64,000 nt of DNA from Oidiodendron maius Zn (Eukaryota > Ascomycota > Leotiomycetes > Myxotrichaceae): positions 1-64,000 of the forward strand of contig KN832891.1 in the NCBI GenBank assembly GCA_000827325.1, written 5' to 3'. Below the pieces are notes generated by a model. It was not told the DNA's origin. It saw only the letters and a list, made by a program, of their open reading frames with translations, and did no database searches. The position numbers were made by a program, and so were the translations under genes. This document shows, piece after piece, positions 4,622 through 27,043 of this stretch. Position 1 is the stretch's first letter. Each line of letters opens with the position of its first letter.

Positions 4622-5614
4622 CTATCTGCTCTTTGATCCAAGTCTTGATGCTGTTGTCCGGAGAGCTTTGATTACGGTCGCTTTTGCTTTACTTTGCTCC
4701 ATGACCGCCAACCCTACAGCAGTTACGCCGCCAGGCGATGTAACCTTTGCCCTTACCGTCGCAGCATCTTCACCAGACACGACCAGCTCTGCTGCCCCTG
4801 CCATGGTTAAAGCCGCCATTCGCGAAGCCTCTGTCCTATCGATTCCGTCTGCCACAGCACCCTCGATTACGGCCTCAAGGAACCACGCAAAGAATGCAGT
4901 ACCGGAGGCGCATAGGGCCGTGGCCGCAGGCATCTGATCTACAGTCACAAAGGCAATATCTCCGATGCGCCCGAGGACATCCATAGCTAGCTCAAGATCC
5001 TCATCTGGCATGCCGGTAGACTTATCAGCAACAACGGTGATAGATCTCTTCCTCGCCGCAGCTGCGTTAGCAATGGCTTGGACGATGTGGCATGGATGCT
5101 GGCCAGGTGGCGCTCGCCCAGGTGTCACGTATATCGCCTCCTCGAGTGCTGCCACAGACACGCCGCCGAGCATGCTCACCAGCAGTTTTCCGGCGAGCGC
5201 TTCTGGCATGCCCTGCGCTCCGAGGATCTCGCTTGCTTGGTGAGGATGGCATGTAAGAACTATCACGTCAGCTCTGCGTGCAGCGTCGATGTTGTTCCCT
5301 ACGACGAGTTCAAGAGGACATGCTTTGTCTTGGAGATGAACCAGAAACTTCTCCGAGAGGAGCTCGGACTTTTCCCGTGTGCGCACCGAGGCGATGACGA
5401 GCTCGAGTGTACGCGAATTATGTTGTGGTGCCTCGATATCCCGATGGCGGCGAGGTTCCAGTATCCCTTGAATCACCGCGACCCCGAGTTTACCTACATT
5501 TCACGATCAGACCGGGACGATGCCATTACTTGCGCCTTGGAGTTTCGTTTCGAACTCACCACAGCCAATGATAGCCAAAGTGAACCCCGGCGATTGAATA
5601 CTGGTGGGCGTCAT
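4622..5614 (-). CDS. Pyrroline-5-carboxylate reductase (P5CR), 308 aa
   Basis: Reduces pyrroline-5-carboxylate, or a methylated analogue, to the proline with NAD(P)H. The start is the ATG at 5614. A 66-bp intron (5494-5559) splits the dinucleotide-binding motif, and splicing gives IIGCGKLG. The C-terminal half has the ProC signature: CASGTAFFAWFLEAV, the Gly/Ala-rich dimerisation helices and KVTSPGGVT. The length is typical for the family. It is transcribed away from the Diels-Alderase gene across a 430-bp shared promoter that carries GTGACCGAA. A P5CR inside a PKS-NRPS cluster that also has a 2OG oxygenase and a Zn alcohol dehydrogenase suggests methylproline supply (UcsG/GriH-like role, inferred). 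A housekeeping proline gene is the alternative, but the position argues against it. Confidence 0.9.
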
Positions 5615-5764
5615 AATGCAACTAGAGTAGCGAGGGGGATATCTATACAACCAGCGAGCAGGCAGTGCCGAGAGATCACGATGCTTTACAGGATACTTGG
5701 AAACGGGGCAATGTAGGGCTAGGCGAGATTGCTCTAGCTGAGTAATGCGCTCAACGAAACATAA

Positions 5765-5782
5765 GTGACCGAACTGGCCGAA
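5765..5782 (+). promoter_or_regulatory. Tandem cluster motif GTGACCGAA / TGGCCGAA in a divergent promoter
   Basis: GTGACCGAA (5765-5773) is followed after one base by TGGCCGAA (5775-5782). The pair lies between the divergent P5CR and Diels-Alderase genes. The same words recur upstream of many cluster genes, so a shared operator is inferred. Confidence 0.6.
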
Positions 5783-6044
5783 CCTGGGAAGCGATATTCT
5801 AGCTTCGGCTCCTCTCCCCTTGCACCGAAACGGCTTATTCTGACATGACATCGCACATATTAACGATTTTGAGTGTATTGATGGAACGTTTCTGTGTTGC
5901 GGGATGCCTCTGGTGTATTTAGCTAATAAAGCACTCTCCATCCAGTGGCTTGTTCCCTCCTCGGTCTAGGTGATCACACAACCGCTACATGATAGGCTGA
6001 GCCAAACAACACATCTTCCATCAGTCTCGGGTTGGATCAGTAGG

Positions 6045-7330
6045 ATGGCTCGACTCAACCGTCAAACCGCCTACCAGAGAGCGGACGAGATTGACTTCTC
6101 TACGTCTTCTGCAGACCCGTTGGCCGCATGGCGGATTTCGGGAATCAAAGGGCCAGTGTGGGAGCAATGGTATTTTGATAGCGTGGCGGACGATGGCAAG
6201 TCAGGCATTGTCCTCACCCTCGCAAGAGATGCCAGTTATGCCATCCTTGGTCGTGGAGTGCTGCGGGTTGAGCTCGATGTCACCTTCTCCGATGGCTCTC
6301 GCCACAACCATGTGGACTGGATGAGCGAAGCCGTGGTGGAGGACCGGAGTGCTGCAAAAGGCACCGGGACCATTGACGGTGCGTGGACGGCACCGAGTAA
6401 ATCTATCAGGTACCAGATCGCTGCAGACGGCAGCGCTGCCAAGGTGGAAATCGACACGCCAAATGTCCGCGGCCATTTCACCCTCGCGGCCCTGTCCCCT
6501 CCCATGTATCCCAACGGGGAGACGCAGGAAGAACTCAAGGCGTCCGGCAAGACCGCATCGACAGAGCTCCTGCCCAAGATCCATCTCGTTCAGGTCATGC
6601 CCACCGCCACGTTCGAGGGCGACCTCATGGTCAAGGGTCGGTTGCTCCGTTTCCGGGGCATTGGCGGACACATGCACGCATGGGCGCAGGGATCGTGGTT
6701 CGACACAACCCTAGGCTGGCGAGTAGCCAGAGGCGTGGCGGGGCCTTTCAGTGTGACGCTTATGGAGTACACAGATATGGATGGCATCGTTCACTCGAGT
6801 GGTTTCGTCGCCGAAGACGGGAAGAAATGCTTCGGCGGCATGGAGGTGTACACCACGTCGCAGTCATCCGCCGCGTCTCAGCAGGCGCTGAGATACCGAG
6901 ACGGGGATCAGAAGGCAAAGAGGACGGTGCGGTGGACGCCCACGTACAACACCGGCTTCGCTGGCCGATTCAACGACTCGAGTACGGGGGCCATACTGCA
7001 CTTTTCCACAACCGAGTCTGGCGAGGAGTATCAATTTGAGCTGACGCACCGGCGCAAGGCTTTTGAGTTCCTTTTTGGAAGCAGTAGTTGTGGTTTGACG
7101 GCCTTCCTGGGTGAGCTGAAGGGGGGGAAGGTAGGAGGGGAGGTCCATAGAGGAGTTCAGTTTTCCGATGTCTGTGTATTGCCCCGTAAGTGCTATCTCA
7201 GATTTCTCTCATCGTGACGAGCTTCTAACTTTCTATTTTAGAAGGCTTTACGAAAGTCTACTTCTTTATTTGCATGCTGCTCGCTGTGGTCACCTTCGGC
7301 TATGTTAACATCCTGGAGACCACCACTTGA
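6045..7330 (+). CDS. Diels-Alderase-family (lipocalin-like) cyclase, 409 aa, with a C-terminal membrane helix
   Basis: Resembles the fungal decalin-forming cyclases (Fsa2/CghA/UcsH group, beta-barrel fold) that guide an intramolecular [4+2] cyclisation of a polyene intermediate. Supporting features are WRISGIKGPVWEQWYFD near the N-terminus, the GRGVLRVELDVTFSDG strands, the RFRGIGGHMHAW segment and a length close to the family's. The ATG at 6045 is the first in frame. A 56-bp intron (7186-7241) precedes an 89-nt last exon that encodes a hydrophobic stretch (YFFICMLLAVVTFGYV) and then the stop, which predicts a tail anchor. Members I know of lack an obvious tail helix, so this is unusual. It is divergent from P5CR. 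The reaction is inferred from family and context. Confidence 0.85.
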
Positions 7331-7887
7331 AAACCGCTTGGGGGCCACATTATGGATAGTAATGAAGATGGTTATACCCATATCTTGTTCTTCTTTTGCC
7401 CCAGCACACTCTGGCGGTTTGCCACTCATTCATGGAAGTCAATGACCTGACTCAGCAGGCGTGGTAAATGTCGCTCCACTGACTTGGCTGAAATCACAGT
7501 CAAGTGCATTGGAACAGACTGGCTGTATTTATTTATCACTAGATGCGAATATGAAGATCTTCTGGGATAGTTCCTGGGTGCTAACACCACGGTTTTGCTA
7601 CTCTCCCAGCGTGTCTTGTGCCTGTCAAGTTGCCTCCGTAGAAAATAACCCTCAGGCCGGTGTAAATCACCGAAGGAGCTTCTTCAAGCCGAAAGGACTA
7701 GACCGAAGATCATGGAAGGCAAACACCTATTCTTTCCAACTATTTAACTCTTGAAGATTCCATGCTCCAGCCTTCGATCCACCCCTTCCCCCAAAAAGAA
7801 GAGCCGCGCATCCTATTCTATAGGCCTCTACACCAGAGTAACGTACCAATCAAAAGATAAAAACAGCAAATCCGTAAACCAGCCAGA
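7331..7887 (+). promoter_or_regulatory. Intergenic promoter region of the alcohol dehydrogenase with CCGAA cores
   Basis: No gene is seen here. Three CCGAA cores (TCACCGAAG near 7668, AGCCGAAAG near 7687, GACCGAAG near 7701) lie within 40 bp, about 190-220 bp before the ADH start. They fit the core but not the full GTGRCCGAA word. Confidence 0.4.
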
Positions 7888-9332
7888 ATGGGGCACTTGC
7901 CAGATACTATGACCGCTGTTATTTTTGATGGGCCAGGCAAGGTCTCCGTCCAGGAACGGCCCGTCCCAAAAAGTGACCACAGCACCCCGAGAAGCCTAGC
8001 TTCATGTACTGACCTATGGATATCATTCTAGTCCAGCATGATGGAGATATCCTCGTCAAGGTGCATGCCGCTGGCCTCTGTGGTTCGTACGTCTAGCTGC
8101 AATCCATCTTTCTTGGTGACATACTCTGACATGTACCCAGCGACCTCCACCTCTTTCGCGGTCACGAGACAACCAGTGCAACAGGGTTCATCATGGGCCA
8201 CGAGTTCACAGGCACGGTAGTCGCGGCTGGGAAGGGCGTCAAGACGGTGCAGGTCAACGATAAGGTTGTGTCGCCATTCACGGTGTCCTGGTAGGTGGTT
8301 CGATGGTCTCTGAATCCCTCTCCCCTCGCCTCCCCGTTTGCCCCTCGACTGTTCCCTTCTTCAAGCAAAGGCAACTTACCGTCAACGCAGTGGACATTGC
8401 TTCTATTGCAAGAACGGATCCTCGTGCCGATGCGTTCACAGCTTGGTCTTTGGTTCCGAGCGTCTGGACGGGGCTCAGGCCGAGTACATACGCGTTCCGC
8501 TGGCCGACGGGACCGTGGTAAAGGCGCCACCGGAGCTGAGCGACGATGCCCTCGTGCTCATGGCCGATGTGTTTCCCACTGGGTTCTTCGGCACGCGGAA
8601 TGCATTCGCTGGACGGGAAGCACAGGACGCGGCGGACACGACGGCGGTGGTCATCGGCTGCGGTCCGGTGGGACTCTGTGCGCTGGTAGCGGCACTGGAG
8701 TATAAGCCCAAGTATGTCTTTGCCATTGACAGCATCGAGAGCCGGCTCCGGGTTGCGGAGAGCCTGGGTGCTGAGCCGCTCAACATTGATGGTGGCCTGG
8801 AAAGTGTCGTGAACCGCATCAAGGCGGTCACGGAGGGAAGAGGGGCTGATATTGTGATTGAGGTGGTTGGCCAGAGTGCTGCTTTGAGAACGGCCTACGA
8901 TATCGTCCGGCCATTTGGCTCGATCTGCAGTCTGGGGGCTCACCATTCTCCAGTAAGGAGTACTTGTGAAAATACGCCTCTGAAATGAACTGAACTTACT
9001 GCGTTAGATGCCGTTCACTGCCACTGAAGGATACGAGTAAGCGCGAATCACCAAAATTTACCCAAGTCAGGGATTAACTTGCACTATAGCAAGAACGTTA
9101 GGATCCAGATGGGCAGATGCCCAGTGCGTTCCATCTTCCCTGACGCACTGAAGGTTCTAGTCAAGAACCAAGATCTTTTCGGGTGGGTCATCAATAAGAG
9201 AACCTTCTCGTGGCCGTTCTAATGACGAGCTTCAGCTTCATGTTCGACAAGATTATGCCCCTCTCCGAGGCAATAGAAGGCTATGAACTGTTCAGCAGAA
9301 TGCAAGCCCAGAAGGTGATTTTCAAGCCGTGA
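7888..9332 (+). CDS. Zinc-dependent alcohol dehydrogenase (MDR superfamily), 356 aa
   Basis: Oxidises an alcohol or reduces a carbonyl with NAD(P). Seven exons join in frame: 7888-7972, 8032-8086, 8141-8290, 8391-8952, 9008-9036, 9090-9182 and 9236-9332. Spliced, it shows the catalytic-zinc residues (CGSD, GHEF), a structural-zinc loop of closely spaced cysteines (CGHCFYCKNGSSC), and the Rossmann motif GCGPVGLCA. The end FDKIMPLSEAIEGYELF is typical of the family. A Zn-ADH beside a P5CR and with a 2OG oxygenase in the same cluster parallels bacterial methylproline pathways (GriF/NosE-like dehydrogenase oxidising 5-hydroxyleucine), so that role is proposed. A tailoring oxidation of the final scaffold is the alternative. 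Confidence 0.85.
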
Positions 9333-9726
9333 ACAGCGCTTCCGGCCGAGATCAGCAGGTTGGCCGTGGCTTGACCGTACCCATCCATGTCACGTCCTCG
9401 GGGTTTCTTAAACTCTAAGAATATAACTAGCGTTAGTTTGAGAAAGCTGAAATGAGAGGTCTGAATGTGATGTTCCCACGTATTTTCTACCTACTTTCAC
9501 AGATTGAGATTCAAGAGTGGAGGAGAGATAAACTGTTAGCCCGACTTTATAAAACCTAGATATAATATAGCTAATAAAACCAGCTCTTAACAAATCGTAT
9601 GAGTAAACTCAGTATAGGATGAAAAAGACTCTAGGCGTTGGCGTTCTATTGAATTCGCCACAGCGGGCTCGCCCGTAACAGAAGATAGCCAATAGCCGCT
9701 GGGTCTATGAAGGCAAGAGAAGAACC
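9333..9726. other. Intergenic, 3' ends of two convergent genes
   Basis: Lies between the convergent ADH (+) and epimerase-type SDR (-). No gene recognised. Confidence 0.4.
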
Positions 9727-10852
9727 TCAATCCAACAACCCGAGGCTTCTGGCTTCGGCGGTCACGATGGCCTTGATCTCCTCTTGGAGGGAGACACCAC
9801 TGGGACGCCAACCCAGCGCTTGCTTTGCCCGTCTCCCCTCGACCCGACAATTGCATCCCCAAAAGAACTGGCCCATGGTAGCCAGGCTCGCGGCCTCTGT
9901 TGGACCGATCGACACTGCCTCTGCTGGAGTGATGAGACCTCGGGAACTTGCTTCATCCGACACCAAGCGCCCCAGCTCTCCCCAGACATGCTCGCCGTTC
10001 TCCGCAAAGTAGAACCCGTCCGGCCCTCCCCAAACGGGTAGCCCGTCTCCAGCTTCGTTTCCCCCCGCAGCAGCATGCTCAACGAGCTTCAGATACAGGC
10101 CTGAGAGGTCGTGGACATGCACATGACGCCAGGCAGCCTTGCCCTCGCCCACCTGCACTGCGTGGCCGCGCTGCAGCGTGCACCGCACCAGCTGGTGGAT
10201 GGCGGTCGAGCGGTATCTAACAATGCCCCTTCCCAGCCCATAAGCCGAGCCCGTGCTGACCACCGCCGTCCTCACCCGCTCAGGGGCCTGGATGCCGATG
10301 GCTCGCACGGCATTTTCGGCGCCGCGGGCCTGGGCAAAGTCGGGCACGGCCAGCACTTCCGGCAGGCCTTCGACGTCGTTGAAGACCGTTGACGTGCCGT
10401 GTCCGTAACGGTTGTTGACCACGTCGTCGTAGATCATGGTTCCGGAGCCCATGGTATGGATGAGAAACCCCAGCCCCGGAGCAGAGCGGCGTGCAAGCCC
10501 TCGTGCCAACGCCTGCGCCGACGGCTCGTGTGTGGCATGCGCAAAGTCTAAATAAACCAAGCCATCAGCCGCCATCCGCCATCAAATCATGCTTCGATCT
10601 CACAAGGAAGTGGGCGGAGAATCACTCACTGCACACAATGTCGGCCTGGGCAGCTTCTTCTTCTACGAGCTTCAGGTCGTTCAAGTCTCCGTGAACGATG
10701 CGGATCTGTGGATGGGCCGCCGCCACCTTCACGCTCTTGCCCTCATCTCGCACCAGGCACGTAACTTCATACTCTGGGTGCGCCTTCAGGATGGCATAGA
10801 TGGCATCCCCACCTAGATACCCCGTAACACCAGTAGCAAAGATTTTAGTCAT
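9727..10852 (-). CDS. NAD(P)-dependent epimerase/dehydratase-type SDR, 347 aa
   Basis: Extended short-chain dehydrogenase. Exon 1 (10630-10852) has the N-terminal motif TGVTGYLGG and the HGDLNDLK segment typical of extended SDRs. An 82-bp intron (10548-10629) follows, and exon 2 (9727-10547) carries the rest, including VSTGSAYG, HQLV and VHVHDLSGLYLKLVE. The chosen ATG at 10852 gives MTKIFATG, right for this fold. It shares a divergent promoter with the P450. The substrate is unknown; a ketone or alcohol step on the scaffold is a guess. Confidence 0.85.
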
Positions 10853-11049
10853 CTCAGACGGTGACCAATTGTCACGCTTAACGCTTTGTCCTGGGCAGAT
10901 GGTCTCTGGGAAATGATAGCCTGCATTGTCTCCTTTCATGGGCGCCTCGCGGACTTTCTAACCACTGGGTGCCTTCGACCCATGAAAGATGAGTGCCGAT
11001 ATCAGATGGGATCCGCAGTGCCGAGAGGTGGTGCAGCCGGCCCCGAACC

Positions 11050-11080
11050 TTCGGCCACATTTCCAGCCAACTTCGGTGGA
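11050..11080 (-). promoter_or_regulatory. Cluster motif (TTCGGCCAC and CTTCGG) between SDR and P450
   Basis: TTCGGCCAC at 11050-11058 is the exact reverse complement of GTGGCCGAA. A second TTCGG core follows about 14 bp later. They lie between the divergent SDR and P450 genes. Confidence 0.55.
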
Positions 11081-11249
11081 CGGCGCATTCCTGTCCTGCA
11101 TGCTGGATTGATGGCTGTCATGAAACGGATGACAGTCATATAGCCAGTATTGGTGGTCAATTTCAGCCATTATAACATACACCGCACTCGCACGATGCTC
11201 CCGCGATGTGCGCTGTTTGGGCTCGTACGAACCACACGACATATCAGAT

Positions 11250-12888
11250 ATGGATGCCCCAAGCACCTTGAGACTGGCCGGACTGGGCGCTGCTTCTTTC
11301 GGGCTGTATCTCATCGGGCTTTCGATCTATCGACTTCGCTTCCATCGAATCTCTCATATCCCGGGGCCTAGGCTTGCGGCCTTGACCTACTACTACCAAT
11401 CATACTATGACTTTTTCCCGCATCAGGGCCAGTTTCTCTTCAAACTTGAAGAGCTCCATCGAAAGTACGGGCCCATCCTCCGTATTGGGCCGGACGAGAT
11501 TCACGTCAACGATGCCAAATTCTACAAGGAGATGTACGGCTCCTCCGTGCACAAGAGAGATAAGTCCCCCGTGTGGTATTGGATGGATGGCCTGGGGGCC
11601 GTGGGCGACCAGAGTATGTTCATCACGCTCGATCATGATCACCATCGCCTGCGGAAGGCGGGTTTAGGCACCTACTTCAGCAAGCGCAAGGTACAAGATC
11701 TTGAGCCACGGGTGAAGGAGAAAGTTCTCCTGCTACGGCAGCGGCTGCTGGAGCGCACTGGCAACGCCCCCGTCAGCCTGAAGGATGCATTCGGTGGCAT
11801 GGCGCTGGGTAAATGAGCACCACCTTAGTCCTTGACCAAGAGAGAGCCTAACCGTCGTGCCAGACATCATCACGTTATACTGCTTCAATCAGTGCATCGG
11901 AGCGCTGGACCGACCAGACCTTGGCCACGACTGGAACCAGCTGATGGCAACCGGCGTGAAGATCAACCCCTTTGCCCGGACCTTCCCAACCTTTGCACGC
12001 ACGGTGATGCGGCTGCCCAAGTGGGCCCTCAGCTGGAGCGGGATGGTATCGACGACAGGAGAATTCCTCGACCTCGCCGATCGACTGTCCGCGAACGCCC
12101 GCAACGAGGCGATTCAGGATCTGAGCAACGGCAAGTACTCACTAACCGACGACGCCGATTCGAGAACCGTGCTTCACTCGATGATGCGAAGTGACGTCCT
12201 CCCAGTCCACGAGAAGACCGAGAGTCGGCTGCAGGCCGATGGCATGACCCTGATCGCAGCGGGCTTCGACACCACCAGCCGCACTCTGACCGTGATATTC
12301 TACCACCTCCTCACCAAAGCGCACCTGCGTACCCGCGTCCTCGAGGAGCTTCGCACGCTGATGCCGACGCCGGATTCCCCCTTGCCAACCGTCGCTCAGC
12401 TAGAACAGCTCCCTTACCTCACATGCGTCATCCACGAGGGCACACGCCTCGCGCACGGTGTTGCCGGCCGGCTGGTACGCATCGCGCCGGAGGAAGACCT
12501 GGTCTACCACAGCAGCGACGGACGCACCTATGCGATCCCCCGCGGCGCCACCTTCGGCCAGTCCTCCTACCTGGTACACATGGATGAGACGATCTATCCG
12601 AACGCGCACGAGTTCAACCCCGACCGGTACTGGAGCGGCGATGGCAAGACCACCGATGCCGAGCGTTACCTGGTGGCGTTTGGGAAGGGCACGAGGATGT
12701 GTGCGGGGATCAACCTCGCGTTTGCAGAGCTGCGTCTTGCCATCGCCGCGCTCATCGGGACGGTGGATATGCAGATCTCAGTGGGTACCACGGAGCGGGA
12801 TGTCTCGCTCGTGGCGGAGCTGTTCGTGGGTGTGCTTCCCGAGAATCCTGGGGTTCGCGTGAATGTCCTTGGTAGTCTCGCGACCTAG
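11250..12888 (+). CDS. Cytochrome P450 monooxygenase, 527 aa
   Basis: Membrane-anchored haem-thiolate oxygenase. Exon 1 (11250-11808) gives an N-terminal helix (LGAASFGLYLIGLSIY) and a proline hinge (HIPGPRLAALT). After a 55-bp intron, exon 2 (11864-12888) carries the I-helix AAGFDTTSRTL, the ExxR motif (HEGTRLAHG), FNPDRYW and the haem loop FGKGTRMCAG with the ligand Cys near residue 468. An ATG at 11208 is also in frame, but the one at 11250 places the membrane helix correctly. It resembles P450s related to trichodiene oxygenase that tailor fungal polyketides. A likely role is late oxidation of the decalin or pyrrolizidinone core, as UcsK does in UCS1025A biosynthesis (inference). Confidence 0.9.
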
Positions 12889-14800
12889 TAGGGCGGGGTA
12901 CATTCAGTCACGCGTAGAGGGGGGACGAGAAGAGTTGCCAGGCAGCATCGTGCAACCGATAGGATAGAACAGCATACTTGGCAAGCAGAAAGTAATAGAG
13001 ATTGTAAGGGAGTTATACCCCCCTATTATAGGGACTACGCTGCAAAACACCCGAGCCACCATCCGTACGACAGCCTGTGCGCAAGTTCTCTTGCCCTATA
13101 TATTTTCCACTCTCTGTACAGCAATGCATTTTCCGTTTTCAACTAGTCCTCCTTGACCAAAGCCTGTCTACAGCACTTGTTTAATTGCATGTAACCGGTG
13201 ACATGCCGGCATCGAAGGCACAGACGTGGAATTCGGAATTGTTCCGGTGGACCTTGCCTTGGCATATCCACAGTGCTTACTCCGTACGGGGAGCCCGAAC
13301 AGCCGTCTCATCTGCATCTGTGCCGTCGGCAGATAGGTGGATAGTGCGGGACTCCATCGTGGAGGGGATTTACCCATCCGCATATGTGGTGTAACGTTAC
13401 GGACAGAGGGGAAGGATGCTCGGGCAGTAATATATAGGTACTGACGCCCTCGCCAACTCCAGCACTGGGTCAACAAAATGTTTTCGCGGGGACGGCACCT
13501 GTCAATGTGAGATGGGATTTGGTGGGCCAATAGCATGATCAGTGAAGTACTGACAGAAGTTCTCAGCATCGAAGGTCGGCCACATACACGGGTTTGCGAC
13601 CAAGCCAGGTGGCTCTGAGCCTATAGACCCGAGTACTTAGAACATTAGCTACATATCTCTCTGTATAGGGTTATGTATAGAGGGGCCTGTTGAATCTGTA
13701 GCCTAGAATCGTGCAGTGCTTTAAGATGCTAGCGTAGAGTTAATAGGAGATAATTTTACACACTAATTGGCTTGATTGGCTTGCTCGTATCGGAGTGGCG
13801 GTGGCGGTAAAGAGCAGACTAGCCCTCTAGGACCCTCTTCAAACGCTACAAGTATAAAGCTTGAACTATAGGTAGGGTTGCATTAGCTATATAGTAGTAG
13901 ACTAAATTAATTAAAGTGAAGAATTAAGTATTAAGGTTTTCTAGAATAAATCTATAAAGTATAGTATTATAGAAAGGATAAACTTAATTAAAAATAAGCT
14001 TATATTAAGGCTTGCATTATATTTGCAATGGTAGGTGTTAGAATTACTTATATACATTAGCCTTTTAATATTGCAATCTTAATTAATTGCTAATAACTCT
14101 TTCTATTATAACAGTACATAACCTTTAAGGTTAATTCTTCTAAACTCCTTCCCTTAAACCTTTAACTAAAAAGATGCTATATGCCAGGTGACTAGATAGA
14201 GAGTCACGGGCAAGGGACTGGGTCGCACGTGGCTCGGATCAAGGACTGCATTAGTGCGTTTTATGTATATAAAGAGGCAGGCCCTCTTTCCGAGCTTCCA
14301 GCAACCCACTAGCGAGGCTCCTTCAACCCCCCACCGTCCTGCTGCATATCCACCAGCTAGTCGTCCGTCTCACTCAGTACGAAAGGATCCTGACAGTATT
14401 AGATTATCTTTTAGCTTTAATTCAATTCAAATCTCTAACTCAAGGAGAGCTTTATATATAAATTGAAACTCTTAAAAATCTATATTTAAGAGGGTATACT
14501 TGTACTATATACAACACTATATACTAGGTGAGAATATTATAGTGTTGCTTAAATTCTGCTAAAACAGTAGTATTCTAGAGGGTTCTAAGGTAAATAAGCA
14601 GGGGGTCAGTAAAAAGTGGCGAATGTGCATAGTCCTCATCATTGCATTGCGGTGGGGGCTGTGAGTGACAGCACGTGCAGAGTCAGCAACAATGGTGAAT
14701 GGTTCGGAATTGGGGTTGTCCTATTCGATGCCGACTGCCATTCCTCTCCACCTCGACGCCAAATCAGTCAAGGCAAATAAAGTTCGAGATAAGAAAATAA

Positions 14801-14921
14801 CAGGCCCTACGTATTGTCACACCGCCTTTGAGCTCTGCCAAGCAAAATGCCTCTACCGCGTATTCTACAGTGTACTCCAGCGCAACCCCTGCAAAGGCGG
14901 TGTAACAATACTTAGGGCCTG
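14801..14921. repeat. 121-bp inverted-repeat element (MITE-like hairpin)
   Basis: The first 30 bases (14801-14830, starting CAGGCCCTAC) and the last 30 (14892-14921, ending TAGGGCCTG) are reverse complements at 28 of 30 positions, with about 61 bp between. This resembles a small non-autonomous DNA transposon. I see no clear target-site duplication next to the ends, so it could instead be a transcribed hairpin. Confidence 0.55.
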
Positions 14922-15226: not shown

Positions 15227-15233
15227 TCGGTCA
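15227..15233 (-). promoter_or_regulatory. Possible autoregulatory site CTCGGTCAC
   Basis: TCGGTCAC, the reverse complement of GTGACCGA, lies about 330 bp upstream of the AflR-type regulator gene. It matches the cluster motif except for the last base, so autoregulation is possible. Confidence 0.35.
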
Positions 15234-15561: not shown

Positions 15562-16786
15562 ATGGTTCAACCTCGAGGCCCCCGCCGGGAGCACAGCTTC
15601 TCGGGGACGCGCGACGGCGGCGTGGCCAGGCCGCATCGCCAGACTGCCGCGTGCGACCGCTGCCGGGGCCAGAAGCTGAGGTGTATATGGGATCCTAAGG
15701 AGCCACAGTGCCAGCGATGCCAGAGAGCAGACGCTGTGTGTACCGTCCCCCAACCGCGGCCCATGGGCCGACCACCGCGGAATCACCGCGGCGGCAGCAA
15801 CAGCCGCGATGTTGGTCCGACCGACAACATGTATTGCTGGGACGAGGAGATCAACGCGCCGAGTGTCTCAGGCGATGAGGACCCGGCCATGGCATTGGGT
15901 TACACAGACGCCCTGGCCGACCCCATCGACTTTCTAAATTAGTGATGAGCCGGATTCCCCTTCACCCTCCTGCTTATGAAACTAACTGTAGACCAGTTTT
16001 CGTAACCCAGGTGCGCTCAACGATCTGTTTGTGTCGGGTGGCCCGATAGTGACGACTTCGACGATGCCGACGTCGAGTACGAGTTCCGGGGACAACAGCA
16101 TCTCCTTCAGCCCACCGAACAATTTATTTGCGTCAGCCACGCTTATCGACTACTCCGGCGATAAACAAGGGTTGGACAGTCCCAGGGACTTAGCGGATGA
16201 CACAGTCCCCGCCTTGGAAACGCGAGGCAATGACCATGTGCAGCTGCTGATACGGCTGTGCGAGTTGAATGTGGCGCTCGTCCAACACCCTCTGCACGAA
16301 GAGAAGGACAAGATGCGATCCCAGAAGCTGTTTGCCTCGGAAAGCGTGAATCATGCACCCGTAGGCAATCCAACGGGCGACGCACCGTTGCCCGATCTGA
16401 GCGTCGCCGACCTGGGTATAGGGAAGCTACTCCAGTCGACAACCCAGCTGGGGGATATCGTCACGGGGCTCCGGTCCCTCGAGGATGGGAACCTCCAAAA
16501 GGGGGAGGGGCACGACCGATCAACGACGTTAATGGCTCTGAGTTGCTACACTAGACTAGACACCCTGTACTCACGCACCATCGAGCTTCTGCTGCAGGTC
16601 CGAAACGGAAACCGGCACTTCAAAGACGAGGATCGGCTGAAGTTTGATATGGTGATCGACGGGTTCTCGATAAGCGGGTGCCATAACGTACAGCTTGATT
16701 TCTTGGTGTATCTTTATAAACAAGCGCACGAGCGGATTCATTCGTGCATCCAGAGCGGCGGGAAAGCGGTTCTCACTACTCACTGA
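15562..16786 (+). CDS. Zn2Cys6 AflR-type transcription factor, 389 aa
   Basis: Probable pathway regulator. The N-terminal binuclear zinc cluster begins at residue 31 (CDRCRGQKLRC, then CQRCQRADAVC) and is followed by a basic GRPPRNHRGG tail. Exon 1 (15562-15941) joins exon 2 (15997-16786) across a 55-bp intron with an ACTAAC branch site, giving DFLNYFRNPG. The C-terminal half (LSCYTRLDTLYSRTIELLLQV and the following helices) matches the AflR-like domain. It lies inside the cluster, upstream of the trans-ER, and is the best candidate to bind the recurring GTGRCCGAA motif (inferred). Confidence 0.85.
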
Positions 16787-17778
16787 GGGTGGATGAATGA
16801 ATGCTGGTCACTGAGGAGTCAAGAGACGGGTTAGATTTACACACGGGCAGGCCTGACATTCGGTGAGACCCGGGCGGGTACTCCGCAGTCCAGGGTGGCA
16901 CATTTTATGTGCTTTGAAATGTTACTACTATTCCCCCTGAATAAAGCGTCGTGTACCAAGTTTTGAGGTACAGCAAATCCTACTTCCTCTGAGCCTCCCT
17001 TTGCTCGATTCTGCCAATCTACGTAATCTACCTACTCTTTACCTACTTCTCCTACGCATAGTTCTAATTGGTTTATAGTAGACTAAGGTCTGTTTAGCTA
17101 TAGCTATATTAAAGGTGGTTATCTAAGAGGCATAGGAGGCCATATCCAGGAACTTTTTGATCGCTTTCCAAGACATTGCCAAGCTGGAATCAATACACAA
17201 GGTGGCGTAACCAGGTATTCGAGTCAAGTGCTTAGAATATAAATACTGTACTACGATATCCAGCTAATGCGTCCTGTGTCTCGAAAAGTGGGCAGCTAAG
17301 CTTTATCCAGGGGGGACAGCGGTAGTACAGTACGAAGTTAGGGAGACGGGCCGAGCCATGTTAGGCCTGTAGAAAGATCACGTCATAGTGAACCTAGATG
17401 AGGGGCTCGGTAGATAATCAGATTACTCTGCAGTATCTACAGGACAGGAGCGAGATCCTACTAGCGCAACGCCGACGAGAAGGAAGGCAACTGGGCCAAG
17501 CCGGCTCCGGGCAGAATCCCGCGGGGAAAGTGACCGAAAGCTTCGTTGAGTAAATCCCGACGCACAGAAGCCCCGAAAGCCATCTGACAGTTCCCGCTCT
17601 AATCAGGCTCACCGATGGAGCGTGATCCTGGGCCTGATCAGCGCCCTACAAGAAACCATCTTCTCTTGCCGCTCCCTTCTTCCCATCCTCCTCCTCATCG
17701 CTCGCCAAGATCGAAGTTTCGTTTCGTTTCGTTAGGTGGATCACGCCATCTCCCACAGACAAGACCCCAACGTTGAGG
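16787..17778. promoter_or_regulatory. Intergenic region and trans-ER promoter
   Basis: No gene recognised. GTGACCGAA at 17530-17538, followed by more CCGAAAG words, lies about 240 bp before the enoyl reductase start and fits the cluster motif. Confidence 0.5.
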
Positions 17779-18996
17779 ATGGATCTCCCGTTCCACGCGC
17801 CGCCCACGCAAACTGCCGTCATCACCACCGCCGATGGCGCGCACGCCGTGTCCCACGACCGCCCCGTGCCGCCGTGCGGGCCTAAATCCGTGCTCGTGCG
17901 CGTGCGCGCCGTGGCGCTCAACCCGACTGACCACAAGACGCCCGCGCGTGTGCGTGCCGCGGGGCTGACGGCCGGCTGCGACTTCGCCGGCGAGGTGGTG
18001 GCGGTGGGCGCACACGCCAACGAGGAGCCCGAGACCTGCGTGCGCCCGCGCCGCTGGGCCCCCGGCGACCGTGTCTTTGGCGTCGTGTACGGCAGCAACC
18101 CTGGCGCGCCGACCTGGGGCGCTTTTGCCGATTTCGTCGATGCCGATCCCGTGATGCTGTGCCGCGTGCCGGCCGGCTGGGACTGGGAGACGGCGGCCGC
18201 GGTCGGCGGTAGCGTGCACGGCTCGGTGGCGCTTTGCCTCTTTGGCCGCGGGATGGTCGGCTTGGGCCTGGACATGGGCCGGCTGGAAGGCCCGAGCGGG
18301 ATTGACGGCGCGGAGAATAATAGGAACGGTACGGGTACCCTGCCAAGAGAGGACCATCCGCCGCTGCGCAATGAGGAGCTCACCAAGGTGGTACTGGTGT
18401 ACGGGGGGAGCACGGCCTGTGGCACGATGGCGCTGCAGATGCTTCGCCTGTCCGGGTACGTCCCCATCACGACATGCTCGCCGCGCAACGCGAGCCTCGC
18501 ACGGGCGTACGGCGCAGTGGCGACGTTCGACTACAATACTCCCAGCTGCGCCGACGACATCCGGATGTACACCCGGTCCGCGCTGGGCCTGGTGCTTGAC
18601 TGCATCGGCACCGCGCAGTCGGCGGTGCTGTGCTACGCGGCGCTGGGCCGGGCCGGCGGGCGGTACGTAGCGCTGGAGCGGTTCCCCGACAGCGTGGCCG
18701 CATCGCGCCGCGCCGTCAAGCCCAGCTGGGTCATGGGCCCTGTGATGTTCGGCCGTGCGCTCCAGCTCGGTGATGGCTACAGCCAGCCAGCTGACCCTGC
18801 GGCACGCGCTTTCGCCCGCACCTGGTATCCGTTGGCCGAGGCGCTCGCGAGCGCGCAGAGTCTGAAGAGCCACCCTGTGCGTGTAGTCGAGCCCGGGTTA
18901 GAAGGGGGCTGGCCGATGCGGGTGGTTCGCGGGCTGAACGACTTGCGGGAAGGGAGTATCAGTGGGCAGAAGCTTGTGGTTACCGTAAGCTCATAA
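17779..18996 (+). CDS. Trans-acting enoyl reductase, 405 aa
   Basis: NADPH-dependent MDR-family enoyl reductase of the LovC/CcsC/UcsL kind, working in trans on a PKS-NRPS that has no cis ER. A GroES-like N-terminal half (VALNPTDHKTPAR, CDFAGEVVAVG) is followed by a Rossmann half with VLVYGGSTACGTMALQML, the hallmark cofactor motif of trans-ERs. No intron and no zinc ligands, as in the family. The ATG at 17779 gives MDLPFHAPPTQTA. The gene is markedly GC-richer than the PKS-NRPS it should serve, which creates long spurious frames on the other strand. Its partner is the PKS-NRPS at 28.5-41 kb. Confidence 0.93.
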   Translation: MDLPFHAPPTQTAVITTADGAHAVSHDRPVPPCGPKSVLVRVRAVALNPTDHKTPARVRAAGLTAGCDFAGEVVAVGAHANEEPETCVRPRRWAPGDRVFGVVYGSNPGAPTWGAFADFVDADPVMLCRVPAGWDWETAAAVGGSVHGSVALCLFGRGMVGLGLDMGRLEGPSGIDGAENNRNGTGTLPREDHPPLRNEELTKVVLVYGGSTACGTMALQMLRLSGYVPITTCSPRNASLARAYGAVATFDYNTPSCADDIRMYTRSALGLVLDCIGTAQSAVLCYAALGRAGGRYVALERFPDSVAASRRAVKPSWVMGPVMFGRALQLGDGYSQPADPAARAFARTWYPLAEALASAQSLKSHPVRVVEPGLEGGWPMRVVRGLNDLREGSISGQKLVVTVSS

Positions 18997-19698
18997 GGCA
19001 GAGAGTAAGAGTACTGCCCCCCTGAAACCTTGGGAAATAAGGAGGCGGATAAGTATATCCCCAGAACTGTACATATTTATTACAGTATAGAAAAGGACTG
19101 CCCAATATAGTCGATATCCTTTCATGCTCACCGGAGATTGGACTTCATTTCGCCAGCTTCAGGGGTTTCTCTAGGCCCAGAACAAAGATACTGTACACTG
19201 ATCTTCTACACTAATATTCTAGACTGATATTCTAGAATCGCTCGACACCTGTACAGCATTTCACTGCGTTTCCACGGCTTCATTTGTTATGCAACTCTTC
19301 TCTGGTCCATGCACAATCCAGCCTTGTTGGACACAGAGACGGGTGAGTACATGTTAGTACATGTGTGGAAAGTGAACGACTCGCCTATATGGCCGACTCA
19401 CCTATTAGGGATTTGCCGTGATGAGGTATATGGCGCCAAAAGAACGTGATGAGAACCTGAGAACACGGGGGTACCAGGGGCGGCAGAGACGAACGAAAAA
19501 ATGTCCGAAGTCGGTCTATTTCGGCCAGATGTTTTGTTGTGCACCAGAAGAAAATACATGGACAGCTACTTGATAATATGACGCTGCCACCAGAATCACA
19601 ACCCCATCGTTGCCATCGACACCTTTGAGGATTTACATCCGCGACCTGCGAGCATCCCAGCGAACCTTAAACCGGCAATTCGTCCGGCTTCAGGGCCA
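18997..19698. promoter_or_regulatory. Intergenic region and permease promoter
   Basis: No gene recognised. TTCGGCCA at 19520-19527 (reverse complement of TGGCCGAA), preceded by GTCCGAAG, lies about 170 bp upstream of the permease start and matches the cluster motif. Confidence 0.5.
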
Positions 19699-21889
19699 AT
19701 GGCAGTCATTAGTCCTACATCACCCTCTCACGGCACGGATTCGAGCGATGGCACAGATGGCTCGCTCGCTTTCGTCCAGGAATATGGAGGAAATTTATCC
19801 GGTCCTTCTTATCAGGAAGCATCAGGTGCTCCCGTCGAGAATTTCTCTCCTCTTGGGCTGCACGTGACATGGTTCAGCGCCTTTTTCCTGAACATAGGAG
19901 AGATGATCGGGACAGGAGTTTTCTCAACACGTGTGTTTACACAGTACCCTTGTAGCCTTTTCTTAAGAGAGACAAAAAATTTTCTTTTTGAAAAAACGGT
20001 TGCTGATAAAATGGCACCCGTGTACAGCGGCCTCAATCCTGAAAGGTGTTGGCTCTATCGGATTAAGCCTGATATTCTGGCCACTCGGCCTCCTAATTGC
20101 TGGAGCCCAACTGGCAGTCTATATGGAACTGGCGAGCTATTTTCCCAATCGATCAGGCGCTGAGGTGGTATACCTTGAACAGGCTTATCCACGTCCAAAA
20201 TACCTCTGGCCGACTGCTTTTGCTCTCTTCTCGGTCCTGTTAACCTTTAGCAGTAGTGGTGCGATTGGTATGGCCTGGCCTTGTGTATTTTAAATAGGGG
20301 AGACTCAGCTGAGGTTTTCATAGTGATGGCGCAGTACCTGTTTGCGATTGGAGGATATAACCCAAGTGCGTGGCAGCTCAAAGGCCTTGCGGCGGGTTCC
20401 ATAACGTTCATAATGCTTTGTGAGTAGTTATCATAGTGCTCCCTACTCCTCACAAGACTAACATCACCTGTGAAGTGGTTATTTTCAGCACTAAATGGTC
20501 TCTGAGAATCTCTAATGCGATAGGGGTTATTAAGCTCCTTACATTGTTGTTGTAAGTAGGACTGAGTGCAATTCTTCTTCTTTCATATGTCTATCATAGT
20601 CCTGCTAATATTTTTGCAGCATTAGTATCACTGGCCTTGTTGTCCTGGGGGGCCATACTCGCGTGACAAATCCTAAAGCCAACTTTCACAACTCGTTCAG
20701 TGGTACCTCAAATAACGGTTACGGCTTATCGAATGCCCTCATCAAGATTAACTTCGCATACGCCGGCTATACTAATTCATTTAACTTGATCAATGAAGTT
20801 AAAGTATGTAACCCAACTCTATTTTCCTAATCCGCCCAACTTGTCCATCCACCTTGCCTAATTTATGTGCAGAACCCTATGAAGGTTCTGAAAAGAACCG
20901 CGCCAGCTTCTCTGCTCGTAGTAGCAGTCCTCTACATGCTATGCAATATCGCATACTTTGCAGCGGGTCAGTCTCCTCTTCCCTACTCAAATTCTAAGAT
21001 TATAGACCTCCTCATTGATAAATATCTTCTAGTCCCCAAATCTTCCCTAGAAACCTCAAAGCAACTAGCTGCTTCCCAATTCTTTGCTGCAGTCTTCGGG
21101 TCCACAAAAGCCTCCCGAGCCCTGAACTTCCTGATTGCCCTTTCTTCTCTCGGAAACATCTTGTCTGCGCTCATTGGCGCTTCCCGTATTACTCGTGAAT
21201 GCGGACGCCAAGGCGTGCTTCCTTTCCCACGATTGTGGGCTTCGACCAAACCGTTTGGTACTCCCCTTGCATCATACCTCCTTAAGTGGTTTTTAACTAT
21301 CCTTATGATCCTTGCACCACCAGCAGGAGATGCTTTTAATTTTATCGTGGACCTACAAGTTTATCCTAACAATGTGTTTATGTTTACTATGACCTTTGGA
21401 CTGCTATTGATTCGCCGGAGCCGCAAGAAGGCTGGTATTGTGGGCATTGAGTTTAAGGCTTGGAATGCAGCAATTATATTCTCGCTGGCTGTGAATATCT
21501 TTATCCTAGTGATGCCTTGGTTCCCACCACCTGGCGGAAAATATGGGGGCGATGTCAGTTTTTGGTATGCTACATATTGCGTTGTTGGACTTGCTCTGTA
21601 AGTAATCCACCCAGTCACAGAGGTGTACTACACAAGATCTTAATCTGGCGACAGCCTGGGTCTCTGCGGCATTTATCATGTCCTTTGGGTTCACATCCTT
21701 CCATATTATGGGAAATACCGTATCCGCCAGGAACTCGTGGTATTGGATGATGAAGTCGCCAAGGTCCATCGATTAGTCAAGGTACCGCTTGCCGAGTTAC
21801 AGGAGTGGGATGCGGACCATGACGTGCTTGGCCAAAAGGTAGGTAGCAAATCTGTAGAGAAGATTGAGCTTGATATTGGAGGGAAGTAG
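19699..21889 (+). CDS. Amino-acid permease, MUP1/LAT-like, 595 aa
   Basis: Plasma-membrane amino-acid transporter of the APC superfamily, closest in appearance to high-affinity methionine permeases. Seven exons join in frame: 19699-19930, 20028-20267, 20324-20419, 20476-20551, 20620-20803, 20873-21597 and 21655-21889. The spliced protein shows IGEMIGTGVFST, SILKGVGSIGLSLIFW, ASYFPNRSGAEVVYLEQAYPRP and about 12 hydrophobic segments. It lies between the trans-ER and the peptide transporter and carries the cluster motif in its promoter. It may import the amino acid for the NRPS module or its methylproline precursor. A general uptake role independent of the cluster is possible. Confidence 0.9.
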
Positions 21890-22555
21890 TAGAAAGCAAG
21901 ATATATTGGGGATGGCATCCGTTACCTGCTACGAGTCGGACAATTATTTTTCCACTGAATACTACTGTACTTACCTTTATTTAATTTTGGTAATACATCC
22001 AAGGGTCAACAATTTCTGTCATGTTGAAAAGCAGGCTCTACTCGTCGGCTTACTTACGTGGGTCTGTCTATGTCGCGTTGCTCCTAGTTGGTGCAATCGA
22101 CCCTTCGCCGCCTACAACTACAGGTAATAAACCGACCTCAGGATTATGGCTAAACCAAACAAATCCTCAAATGTGGTTACCCGAATGCAACAGGCCAGAG
22201 GCTTCTTTGGAGAATTTCAAGAGGAGATAATTACGGCTCATCTAAGACCTTTAAACTGCTTCAATCAACACTCAGCCCCACAATTCACTGGCCCTCTTCG
22301 CATAGGAGAGGTGGCGAGAAGGATTCCGATGATTAGCCAGGAGGAAGGCGTGAATCAGTTTATTTGGTCTTATTTAGTCCATGATTTATTACTTAAAAAC
22401 GGTATCATAATGCCTGCGATTGCACACATCCATTCTCTTGACAAGAAGCCTCCAGCCTCGCCCTCCTGGTTCTAGAAGTGGTGGAAAACATAACTATTTC
22501 ATGAGTCCGAATTACTGCACAAAACAATGGTGAGGCTCAGGAGAATCTTATCCCT
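21890..22555. other. Convergent gap with a doubtful small frame
   Basis: A frame at 22146-22475 (+, 109 aa) has no recognisable domain or splice support and is not called as a gene. This gap holds the 3' ends of the convergent permease and peptide transporter. Confidence 0.35.
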
Positions 22556-24558
22556 TTACAATGTCTTCTCATCCACCGCCGTAGTCTTGTCCAAGCTAGC
22601 CTGTTCACTAACTGACCTCACCACAGAACCATCTTCAATATTTTCAATTTCCTCTATCATAAACTCATCGCTATCCAACTGACGATACGCCCAGTGAAAG
22701 TGTACCGTAAGGACAAATAATCCGATTGCAGGTCCAGCCCAAACCCATATAAGATGCGGATCTGCGATTGCGGGAGTAACAGCCTCACCGACCGCGGAAC
22801 TCAGCGCCCTTGTGAATAGAAATAGACTTATGACTAGCCCACGCATGTTCTTCGGAGCTCGAGCATAAGCAAGCTCGTATGCTGTCACATTACACAAGCA
22901 TTCTGAAAGCGCACCAAGAGACACGACCACGACTTGGATCCAGATAGATAGAGGGGAGACACCATTGCCAACGGTACAGCCAGTTGCAGCGTAGCCACAA
23001 GGTGAGGTTTCATAAATTCGCCACTGTATGATAGCGCCGATGATGCCAGAGATCCAGGCCAGTGTAAATCCAGTCGTGATACGAGTGATCCGCCCGAATG
23101 GGATCTTCCATCTACGGAGCAGCGGGTAGATGCCGTAGTTTAGAATAGGGGTGGTAACGACGATGGTCAAGGGGTTGAAGTTGCCTAGTAGATCATTAGG
23201 TGCACCGCCCTTGGTCATAGTTGCTCCTTGTGCAGGGAGAACACTGCCGATGCCGCCGTCGTTAAGATTGTACACGATGAAGTAGAGGAATATCTGGCAG
23301 GCGGAAAAAGTGCGGCGCACATCGTCAACAAGTTTGTCATCCCATGCGATTTCGCCACCCTTGTATGTGGTGATGCCGTTTGCTCTCATGACTGATGGGC
23401 GGGCTGCGTCCCAGAATCCTTTTCGAAAGATGCGCCATCCATTCTTCTTTAGGGCTATCCAGATAATAGCGTTGGCATTGGTGTATGCGGATCCGCTCGG
23501 AGATACTCGGAGAGTTCGTTTATAGAAGATCAATAGGAGAACTGGGAGCAGGAAGTAGATGATGCCTGGAAGTAAATATGCCAGCCAATATCCAACATAT
23601 TTCTCCGCATAGTCAGTGGCTATAGCATAGAACGCCCCCACGTTAATAAGACCATAGAAGATCAGCATCATTCTCTGAATAGTTGTTTCGGGATCTACGA
23701 GAACTTTCTCGCCAGATTTTAGTACCTTGGTGTATTCGCGTTGATGCTGGTACTGGTCAAGCACAATCGGGGCAATGTTTGGCTTGAAGAGACCTATGCA
23801 AAGTAAGCAATCTATTTATATGGTGCATCCCTGGGCATAATATACCAGCACCAATTGCAAGAGCGAAGAATGAAATCAAGAATGGTGCTATTGCATGGCC
23901 GTTTTGAAGGACACTCGGAATAGCGCCAACAATCAAAATGATGTGAGCTATACCACAGACCAGGACACCAATGGCAATTGTCTTATACCGACCAAGTCTT
24001 GTATCTGCAATCCATGCGCCAACAATCGGGATAACGTATGCTAAAAAAGTGAAGAGTAGAACAAAGGCACTGGAGAATTGAAGACCCTTTCCAAGAGCGC
24101 CTGCTGTTTTCTCGGAGCCTCTAGGAGGCGATCCCGCGCCATTGCCACCTGCTGGCAGCGGGAATTGTATGAAATTTGAGAAGACTGTCAAGACACCATA
24201 GTATGAGGCTCGCTCAGCAAACTCTATGATACAGAGTGCATAGGAAACTATTGGCACTGAATCAGCGACCTTGCGAAGTGTTGCCCTCTCCAGCTCAGTT
24301 GGCTGAGGAAAATTGGCGTCATCAAACTGCGCCTCTGTGGTGACGGCTTCAACATCCTTATAACCGCTGATGTCTTTATCGTAAAAAGGATTGCTAATAG
24401 CCTCAATGGGCGCATACAAGCTTCGCCCCTGAGGTTCTGCGACCGTTCCTGAGACGCCGGGCGCATTTACAGATCGATCTAAGGGGTTTGTGCTGTTGCT
24501 GGCTAAATCAATGCTTTAGTCAACTGCATGTATCGTAAGAAGTAAGTTACAAACCCAT
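22556..24558 (-). CDS. PTR2-type proton-coupled peptide transporter, 632 aa
   Basis: Major-facilitator di/tripeptide transporter (POT/PTR). Exons on the minus strand: 24555-24558 (only 4 coding bases, ATGG), 23846-24502 and 22556-23793, which join in frame to start MASNSTNPLDRSV. The protein has EFAERASYYGVL, the PTR hallmark IFYGLINVGAFYA and about 12 membrane helices. The body has no in-frame ATG before residue 50, which supports the micro-exon start. Its promoter holds a perfect inverted pair of the cluster motif. It may feed peptides for nitrogen and precursors, or move the product; neither is shown. Confidence 0.88.
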
Positions 24559-24695
24559 TTTGATGTATTCGGACCTATCTGGCCTAACGAACAGTGACGT
24601 TTGGTAGGCACAGAATAACTAGTCAAAGATCCATACAAATAAATATTCGAATCGTGTTTCTTCTCCGCTGGGAACTGGAATCGCGACTTAAGTAC

Positions 24696-24740
24696 AAGTG
24701 GCCGAAAGTTATTAGGTCACGGGTAAACTTTCGGCCACTT
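24696..24740. promoter_or_regulatory. Perfect 15-bp inverted repeat of the cluster motif
   Basis: AAGTGGCCGAAAGTT (24696-24710) and AACTTTCGGCCACTT (24726-24740) are exact reverse complements separated by 15 bp. Each arm contains the word GTGGCCGAA. The pair lies about 140-180 bp upstream of the peptide transporter start. It looks like a binding site for a dimeric regulator; a terminator hairpin is less likely because no gene ends here. Confidence 0.65.
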
Positions 24741-25864
24741 ACGCCATCTCACAATGCATTGTATCCTTCACGACCAGCGGGACTATATCTTTGATTTAAG
24801 GGGCAATTTATATTTAAGAAAGACTCATTATTTTGAAATATAAACACATTGCTTAGTCTCTACAGGTTTGACGGCGATACCAAAGCCGCTCGCTACCATC
24901 AAGATACTCTTATGCAACCGCTGCTCCCGTGACAACCAACTACAGCGTTGATAGAGAAGCTCTTCTTAGCATGATGCAACAACTCCTGGATCTGGGTCTC
25001 CCCCCCTCCTGGACCTCAATGAGGAGATCGAGGGTATTCCGCTCCCGGGTCTCCCAGGAGATCACCATGATTGGGTCACGCGGGATCAAGGACCAGAACC
25101 TGACAGAGGGTATCCTTAGGTTAAAATGCCACTCATCGTCACTATACAGAGGCCTCTAAATGTGAAGGCGTATTTCGACCGCATTAGAATTGTGAGTGGT
25201 AGTAGCCCTTAAAGGTGGTAATCGAACATCCTGTTCCATACACTGCTATTTTTGTGGAATACAAACGAACGTAACTTTATGGAGACATATACAAAAAAGT
25301 GGAGAGGCACTTGTCTGAAGGCAGATGTCACCACGCTGAATAGGCAGAGATTACTACGGGCGGTTGATACGACTAGAGGAAGAATTCGTCGGAAAGCGTC
25401 TGACAAAAGGAAACACGAGCGGAGGCGAAGACAAAGCAAGGATCCTCGCTATACAGTTCCAGCTCCTGATATATAAGCGAGAGAAAGGGACATATATAAT
25501 GGTTATAAATAGATTCTATGGTACCTTCTATACCTATGGGGTTGTTTTGTTTGGGGGGGGGGGTTAGAAGAGTAAGAGTAGGGGGAAATGAAGTTAGCTT
25601 AGTTTAATTTATTCATGAGGATTTAATATGCTGACTAGCTTTATTATATATATGATAAGTTAATATATTATACTTATTCTCTTAAAAATAAAATTAATTA
25701 TCCGAAAGAGATATATTATAACTACTGTTAGATATACATACTTTAGAAGATATATATAATTAACTTAAAATGTAGAGTAGTAGAAGCAAAACGCCAATAT
25801 CAAATCTTTTATTGATCTATAGACTTCAATATAGACCGTTTCCTCATATCTAGCTATCTAGTAT
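24741..25864. other. Gene-poor region
   Basis: Frames at 24929-25159 and 25252-25567 have no recognised family. A run of about 12 G lies near 25551-25563. From about 25600 the DNA is AT-rich. I see no supportable gene. Confidence 0.4.
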
Positions 25865-27043
25865 CTAGTACGCAGCAAGGAGGCGTGAACGGTGATATTC
25901 GGAGGCGGTCATATCTTTGTATCTAGGTGCATCGCCGATCTGGAAAGTCGAGATGGTACCAACAGGAGCCTGTCGGTCTGCCTTGCATAAATAAGCAATG
26001 CTGTAGCGGCGCGGGACCTCAGCGTTCTCATCACTATTGATTTTCTCTGCTAAATCCTTGGGGATAGAAACCCGGTGTAAGCCAGCCGGCAGTTGGTCAT
26101 CAGTCCAGCGTTGAAGCGTTTCGCTGATGTTCACGATGAGCTCATCTTCGGTCTCCGGCTCCACCGGGATGAATGACTGTGGCCCAGGCGCTTTCCTGTC
26201 CTCCACCTCAAGACCGCCCACCGAGGAAGAGAATAGGAGGGTGATGACTCCCAAGTCGAAGTGAGGCCAAATCCGAGCAACGTTGCCACTGCGGAGCACA
26301 GATGCTGGGACAGGAGGATAGTGGTTCAGGCGGAGCTCGCTGGCGTTTTTCTCGTGGGTTATCAATTTGTTAAAAGTGCCTTCTGGGGAGCCCAGCCCTT
26401 CCTCCAAGCAGCCCAAGATGTCGGCGGTAGCTCTTTCCATCTCAAAATAGAAGGACTCCATCTCCTTTTGAAATCCATTGAGGCTTGCAGGCCATCGGTT
26501 CTTGAACGCTTTGTCAAGCGGGGAGCCACAGTCAAAGTGCTCCTGCTCATACATTAGCAATGGCCAAAGCTAGAGTTTAGATCGTCACGACGGACTTGTA
26601 CATATCTAACTAAGGAATACAATGAATATCGAACAATGAGATAAATGCATACCCTGGCATCTGTTAACTTCTCGTAGCCGTCACGCCCTACTAGCTTGCT
26701 ATGCAGGGCGGCTGTCTTCTCCACTCCGACAGCACTATAACCGCGCTGAGGACTTCCATCCGCGATATTGGCGAAGTCAATCTTGCTCTCAGGGTCGAGA
26801 CTGAATAAGTCACCAGCCTGATCGAGAAGATTAGTTAGCTCCAGACCATAATGATCTTTGCCCATGCCGAATTGTTCGACGCACCATATCAAACATTTGT
26901 TTTACTCTGCCAGCTGGAATTCCATGGTTCTTGATTCGAGTAAAGCCGTAGTCCTGGAAACTGAGAATAAGATCCCGGAGATAGCGCGTTCGTGCCTCGG
27001 GGCCAGCGCGTAGCTGTGATGCGTCTAGTAGTGGAACACCCAT
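25865..27043 (-). CDS. 2-oxoglutarate/Fe(II)-dependent oxygenase (IPNS-like), 333 aa
   Basis: Non-haem iron dioxygenase. Minus-strand exons 26885-27043, 26653-26817 and 25865-26542 are all in phase 0. The N-terminal domain starts MGVPLLDASQL and includes DYGFTRIKNHGIP. The iron ligands are His202 and Asp204 (PHFD) and His264 (LHRVS). The 2OG-binding Arg is near 287, in RRYSIAY. Length and layout fit the enzymes that oxidise the methyl group of leucine or isoleucine to start methylproline formation (EcdK, UcsF). With the P5CR and Zn-ADH it completes that route, which is the proposed role. Direct oxidation of the polyketide scaffold is the alternative. An upstream in-frame ATG at 27145 is judged too long for the family. 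Confidence 0.88.

Follow-up and report, generated by a model that had tools for sequence, protein, structure and literature searches.

One end of contig 22 (KN832891.1) of the Oidiodendron maius Zn assembly GCA_000827325.1 (45.9 Mb, 58 contigs) carries a biosynthetic gene cluster built around a polyketide synthase-nonribosomal peptide synthetase (PKS-NRPS). The stretch analyzed, bases 1-64000 of that contig, is referred to here as the window; its introns and its PKS-NRPS and Zn2Cys6 genes mark it as fungal. Alongside the PKS-NRPS, it codes for a 2-oxoglutarate (2OG)-Fe(II) oxygenase, a pyrroline-5-carboxylate reductase (P5CR), a Zn alcohol dehydrogenase (ADH), a candidate trans-acting enoyl reductase (trans-ER), a lipocalin-type Diels-Alderase, an alpha/beta hydrolase, and a cytochrome P450. 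Judged from these sequences, the cluster is very probably of the UCS1025A (ucs) type, directing the synthesis of a decalin-pyrrolizidinone by way of methylproline. The original prediction had placed the P5CR, ADH, and oxygenase, with intact motifs, inside such a cluster, and gene models, motifs, and Pfam matches confirm all three. The five partner enzymes it named are also present, with the PKS-NRPS and hydrolase lying outside the 4622-27043 region that it covered.

Gene models were curated by hand, with splice sites predicted rather than supported by transcripts, and were used in place of automatic predictions, which over-split or shortened genes. Families were assigned by Pfam, except for the P450 (heme motif and PDB matches) and the MFS transporter (by eye). 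The oxygenase was searched twice against the PDB and the P5CR, ADH, Diels-Alderase, hydrolase, and P450 once each, and the fungal comparison set was the O. maius genome itself.

The oxygenase displays the motifs HFD at residue 202, LHRV at 263, and RYS at 287 and matches both DIOX_N and 2OG-FeII_Oxy above the Pfam cut-off; an NCBIfam scan returned no family for it. Among solved structures it is closest to PDB 9ktp, named ucsF, with E 1.2e-170 and a match spanning residues 1-333 of 333. The two proteins share 248/333 residues (74.5%), with the 333 aa model having been picked for its fit to ucsF over a 335 aa version obtained with an alternative acceptor. The second-best solved match, thymine dioxygenase, is 29.6% identical over 314 aligned residues. 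UcsF makes the methylproline unit of UCS1025A, acting on isoleucine to give 3-methylproline, the methyl group of which is oxidized later. Homology to UcsF supports the predicted methylproline supply within a decalin-pyrrolizidinone-type PKS-NRPS cluster. Such high identity to an isoleucine enzyme speaks against leucine as the substrate, an alternative in which the unit would be 4-methylproline and the pyrrolizidinone would differ from UCS1025A. We consider this unlikely, with the point in its favor being that leucine is the substrate of EcdK (PMC7778625).

The PKS-NRPS contains motifs of the KS (DTACSSS), AT (GHSSGE), ACP (GLDSL), C (HHINMD), and T (GGNSL) domains, with DH, KR, and A domains also present. 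The A domain was read by eye against reference positions, and no substrate was drawn from it. At an E threshold of 0.001, no enoyl reductase (ER) family was detected in any piece of the PKS-NRPS, and the separate ER-like gene in the cluster would supply enoyl reduction. The Diels-Alderase matches DA_N (1.6e-24) and DA_C (1.6e-17), both above the Pfam cut-off. The end domain of the PKS-NRPS is of the reductase type with GYVLSK (Y...K), from which reductive release of the product is predicted. Reductive release combined with an alpha/beta hydrolase ("Knoevenagelase") has been tied to pyrrolinone products, and this hydrolase class was used as a marker of the route (PMC7421883). The window hydrolase belongs to that broad class, and its membership in the Knoevenagelase family is putative.

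This gene content resembles that of the ucs cluster. Like ucs, the window possesses a UcsF-type oxygenase, a PKS-NRPS (UcsA), and a lipocalin Diels-Alderase (UcsH); ucs also has a P5CR, a trans-ER, a hydrolase, and a P450. A UCS1025A-type product is indicated because the UcsF-like oxygenase occurs together with an ER-less PKS-NRPS, a trans-ER, a Diels-Alderase, a hydrolase, and a P450. Acremonium sp. KY4917 produces UCS1025A, a decalin pyrrolizidinone for which UcsA and UcsH have been named (PMC7421883, PMC9055775), and the ucs cluster of this strain is MIBiG BGC0001449 (PMC13042317). Chance grouping was also weighed and rejected.

Table 1. Genes of the cluster in the window (positions are those of contig 22)
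Feature	Position	Strand	Remarks
P5C reductase	4622-5614 (exons 5560-5614, 4622-5493)	-	308 aa; predicted UcsG-like role
Lipocalin-type Diels-Alderase	6045-7217	+	390 aa; different last exon possible
Medium-chain Zn alcohol dehydrogenase	7888-9332	+	356 aa in 7 exons; probably tailoring
NAD-dependent epimerase/NmrA-like oxidoreductase	9727-10852	-	347 aa; Pfam
Cytochrome P450	11250-12888	+	heme motif FGKGTRMCAG and PDB matches
Zn2Cys6 transcription factor (approximate model)	~15562-16786	+	PF00172 E 1.1e-6
ADH-superfamily protein, read as trans-acting enoyl reductase	17779-18996	+	405 aa; function proposed from family and context
Amino-acid permease	~19.6-21.9 kb	+	Pfam
POT peptide transporter	~22.6-24.5 kb	-	Pfam
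2OG-Fe(II) oxygenase, UcsF relative	26885-27043, 26653-26817, 25865-26542	-	333 aa
PKS-NRPS	28543-40967	-	4028 aa; KS-AT-DH-MT-(no ER found)-KR-ACP-C-A-T-R
Stand-alone class I methyltransferase	41840-42823	+	281 aa; first exon uncertain; Pfam
Alpha/beta hydrolase, putative Knoevenagelase	43399-44802	-	467 aa; GQSLG
MFS-type transporter	45221-47143	+	580 aa; assigned by eye
Further Zn2Cys6 transcription factor (approximate model)	47833-49066	-	PF00172 E 1.9e-6 in 48623-49066

The P5CR carries the motifs GCGKLG and SPGGVT and matches P5CR_dimer (E 4.3e-27) and F420_oxidored (E 8.7e-11) in Pfam; TIGR00112 (proC) scores it at 180 bits, under the equivalog cut-off of 196.75. Four P5CR_dimer matches were found in the genome, and the window copy is 37.9% identical to that on contig 1, 33.1% to that on contig 35, and 28.5% to that on contig 18, with the contig 1 and contig 18 models lacking the first exon. 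The motifs MPNT, SGPAF, and TPGG are typical of P5CR. All three are retained in the contig 1 protein, which from its sequence is likely the housekeeping enzyme, and MPNT is absent from the window protein. The three further matches rule out the window P5CR as the only genomic copy. ADH_N likewise has 137 matches genome-wide (counted exon by exon, PKS ER domains included), so the concern that the window P5CR and ADH might be the sole housekeeping copies is not borne out.

A second pairing of these enzymes was found on contig 35, where the best relative of the window oxygenase in the genome (52% identical, 169/325) lies ~360 bp from a P5CR, the two genes being convergent. Besides the P5CR, the region (~27-70 kb) holds three 2OG oxygenases (the paired one and two others), an NRPS with approximately four A domains and a terminal reductase domain, a highly reducing PKS, and an ABC transporter, and it looks like a lipopeptide-type NRPS cluster. 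An after-the-fact estimate puts the chance of the best relative falling within 1.5 kb of one of the three other P5CRs at ~2e-4. No Zn-ADH gene was found on contig 35 in searches that score best candidates only: the window ADH had no match in the 70 kb searched directly or contig-wide in the genome search, and the sole ADH_N match sits inside the PKS frame. The contig 35 pair favors a two-enzyme methylproline module, in which the oxygenase would oxidize twice before P5CR acts.

A further UcsF-like oxygenase, 41.9% identical over 217 residues, lies beside a PKS on contig 38 (~50-66 kb). In a seven-sequence alignment, PH[FY]D[LI]G, ET[LI]QRW, and AGLH are common to the window oxygenase, UcsF, and the relatives on contig 38 and next to the P5CR on contig 35; thymine dioxygenase and the remaining two oxygenases of contig 35 display EHTD.G and lack AGLH. 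When bacterial contigs were scanned with an alignment of three oxygenases, using only two short patterns, none of the 42 pattern matches was confirmed.

Related 2OG enzymes often tailor scaffolds, and the contig 38 gene has no P5CR on its contig; both would suit an oxygenase acting on a late scaffold next to a stray P5CR. Against this stand the kinship to UcsF, the three other genomic P5CR matches, and the repetition of the pairing on contig 35, which together make such a role highly improbable. The grouping with late-scaffold enzymes that might have overturned the original prediction was thus not observed, the oxygenase being a UcsF relative.

The Zn ADH is complete, with the motifs GLCGSD, GHE, CGHCFYCKNGSSCRC, and GCGPVG; both zinc-site motifs are kept, ADH_N is matched at E 6.6e-26 (Pfam), and the best solved match (192 sequences matched) is the alcohol dehydrogenase 4cpd at E 1.1e-64. 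It had been proposed as a third, possibly new methylproline enzyme. In that scheme, the oxygenase would hydroxylate once, the ADH would generate the semialdehyde as GriF and NosE do, and P5CR would reduce the imine. A complete Zn-type enzyme encoded 2.3 kb from the P5CR is consistent with this role, which GriF fills in bacteria (PMC5676206), where the dehydrogenase NosE or GriF is paired with other oxygenases (PMC5676206, PMC7778625). It also speaks for the scheme that EcdK managed only 5-6 turnovers in vitro (PMC7778625), so that a helper would have a place. Against it, fungal EcdK carries leucine unaided through two oxidations to the aldehyde (PMC7778625, PMC5676206).

Genomic context also argues against the three-enzyme scheme. 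Beyond the lack of a detected Zn-ADH gene near the contig 35 pair, the nearest relative of the window ADH in the genome lies on contig 7 (49% identical, tblastn), where the 30 kb searched gave a weak match to the P450 and none to the PKS, P5CR, or oxygenase of the window. Among 43 bacterial loci with ADH relatives (27-39% identical, flanks up to 5 kb), none matched the window oxygenase or the P5CR of either the window or contig 1, in a comparison to which a GriE-type oxygenase would be invisible. Since EcdK oxidizes twice alone and NosE and GriF serve other oxygenases, we group the window ADH with the tailoring enzymes, a role more likely for it than one in methylproline formation. In the ucs cluster, too, a medium-chain dehydrogenase (ucsI) is assigned a tailoring function. 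The three-enzyme scheme is improbable, and the proposed methylproline role of the ADH goes unsupported: EcdK needs no such partner and none was detected beside the contig 35 pair.

Among characterized methylproline systems, the window was compared with ucs in sequence, through UcsF, and with the others by description. Like EcdK and GLOXY4, the leucine dioxygenases of echinocandin and pneumocandin biosynthesis, it has a 2OG oxygenase for which iterative oxidation to methylproline without a dehydrogenase is proposed; the reductase lies outside their clusters, whereas the P5CR is inside the window cluster (PMC7778625). GriE/GriF/GriH (griselimycin) and LdoA/NosE/NosF (nostopeptolide) likewise comprise an oxygenase, a Zn-dehydrogenase, and a reductase, which convert Leu to 4-methylproline (PMC5676206). 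GriH carries an F420-dependent annotation, and GriE shares ~13% identity with LdoA and EcdK (PMC5676206). The window oxygenase is a UcsF-like DIOX_N/2OG-FeII_Oxy protein, and the 50 PDB matches listed for it include none under the name GriE.

From the genes, their motifs, the kinship to UcsF, and the contig 35 pairing, we infer the reactions, amino acid, methylproline isomer, and product as follows. On a branched-chain amino acid, most likely isoleucine and possibly leucine, the oxygenase would hydroxylate a methyl group and oxidize it further to the aldehyde, which would close to a methyl-pyrroline-carboxylate for reduction to methylproline by the cluster P5CR. The PKS-NRPS and trans-ER would build a polyene chain, couple it to methylproline, and release the product reductively. 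The alpha/beta hydrolase may then aid Knoevenagel closure to the pyrrolizidinone, a ring system that would arise in place of a pyrrolinone through the use of a proline-type amino acid, and the Diels-Alderase would form the decalin. Tailoring by the P450, Zn-ADH, and epimerase-like enzyme could include methyl oxidation toward a lactone carboxylate.

Several observations weigh against this assignment. Sequence kinship to ucs was established through UcsF, the only ucs protein to surface in the PDB searches, and the remaining kinship is by gene content. The window oxygenase is not identical to UcsF, and, unlike in ucs, the amino-acid permease and peptide transporter separate the trans-ER from the oxygenase; these two may be passengers or may serve in amino-acid supply. 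The methyltransferase motif of the PKS (LEVGGRAGG) looks degenerate, and the best solved match of the Diels-Alderase, Fsa2 (E 2.1e-11), makes it a distant relative of the solved enzymes. PMC7421883 reports no success in identifying residues diagnostic of a Dieckmann-type end domain, so the Y...K of the reductase-type domain is not decisive for the release mode. The contig 38 oxygenase without a P5CR match indicates that the oxygenase/P5CR pairing is not universal, and methylproline formation by the contig 35 pair is itself predicted rather than proven.

At the edge of the cluster, a short-chain dehydrogenase-like gene (3212-4298, +) shifts frame near 3.58-3.62 kb; by eye, no intron was found that keeps both halves, and it may be a decayed gene. 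Bases 1-3000 are an AT-rich contig end with a dinucleotide bias resembling repeat-induced point mutation: TA/AT is 1.28-1.48 and (CA+TG)/(AC+GT) is 0.01-0.57, whereas the sequence starting at base 5001 has values of 0.8 and 1.26, respectively. On the other side, window proteins had no match in contig 22 at 64-84 kb.

The cluster thus appears to offer a further example of known chemistry, akin to the cluster of the antibiotic UCS1025A. A survey of 884 clusters assigned UcsA to a clade comprising just three hybrids (PMC7421883). UcsA-like hybrids had looked rare, and a further cluster together with a second oxygenase/P5CR pair lets enzymes for the amino-acid unit be compared with those for tailoring. 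The enzymes of the window and contig 35 are candidate methylproline biocatalysts. More tentatively, oxygenase and P5CR might form a fungal methylproline module that is portable and serves two clusters of this genome, one UCS1025A-type and one lipopeptide-like, with the paralogues (52% identical) perhaps giving 3- versus 4-methylproline. If so, the two oxygenases would be a natural pair from which to read what sets regiochemistry.

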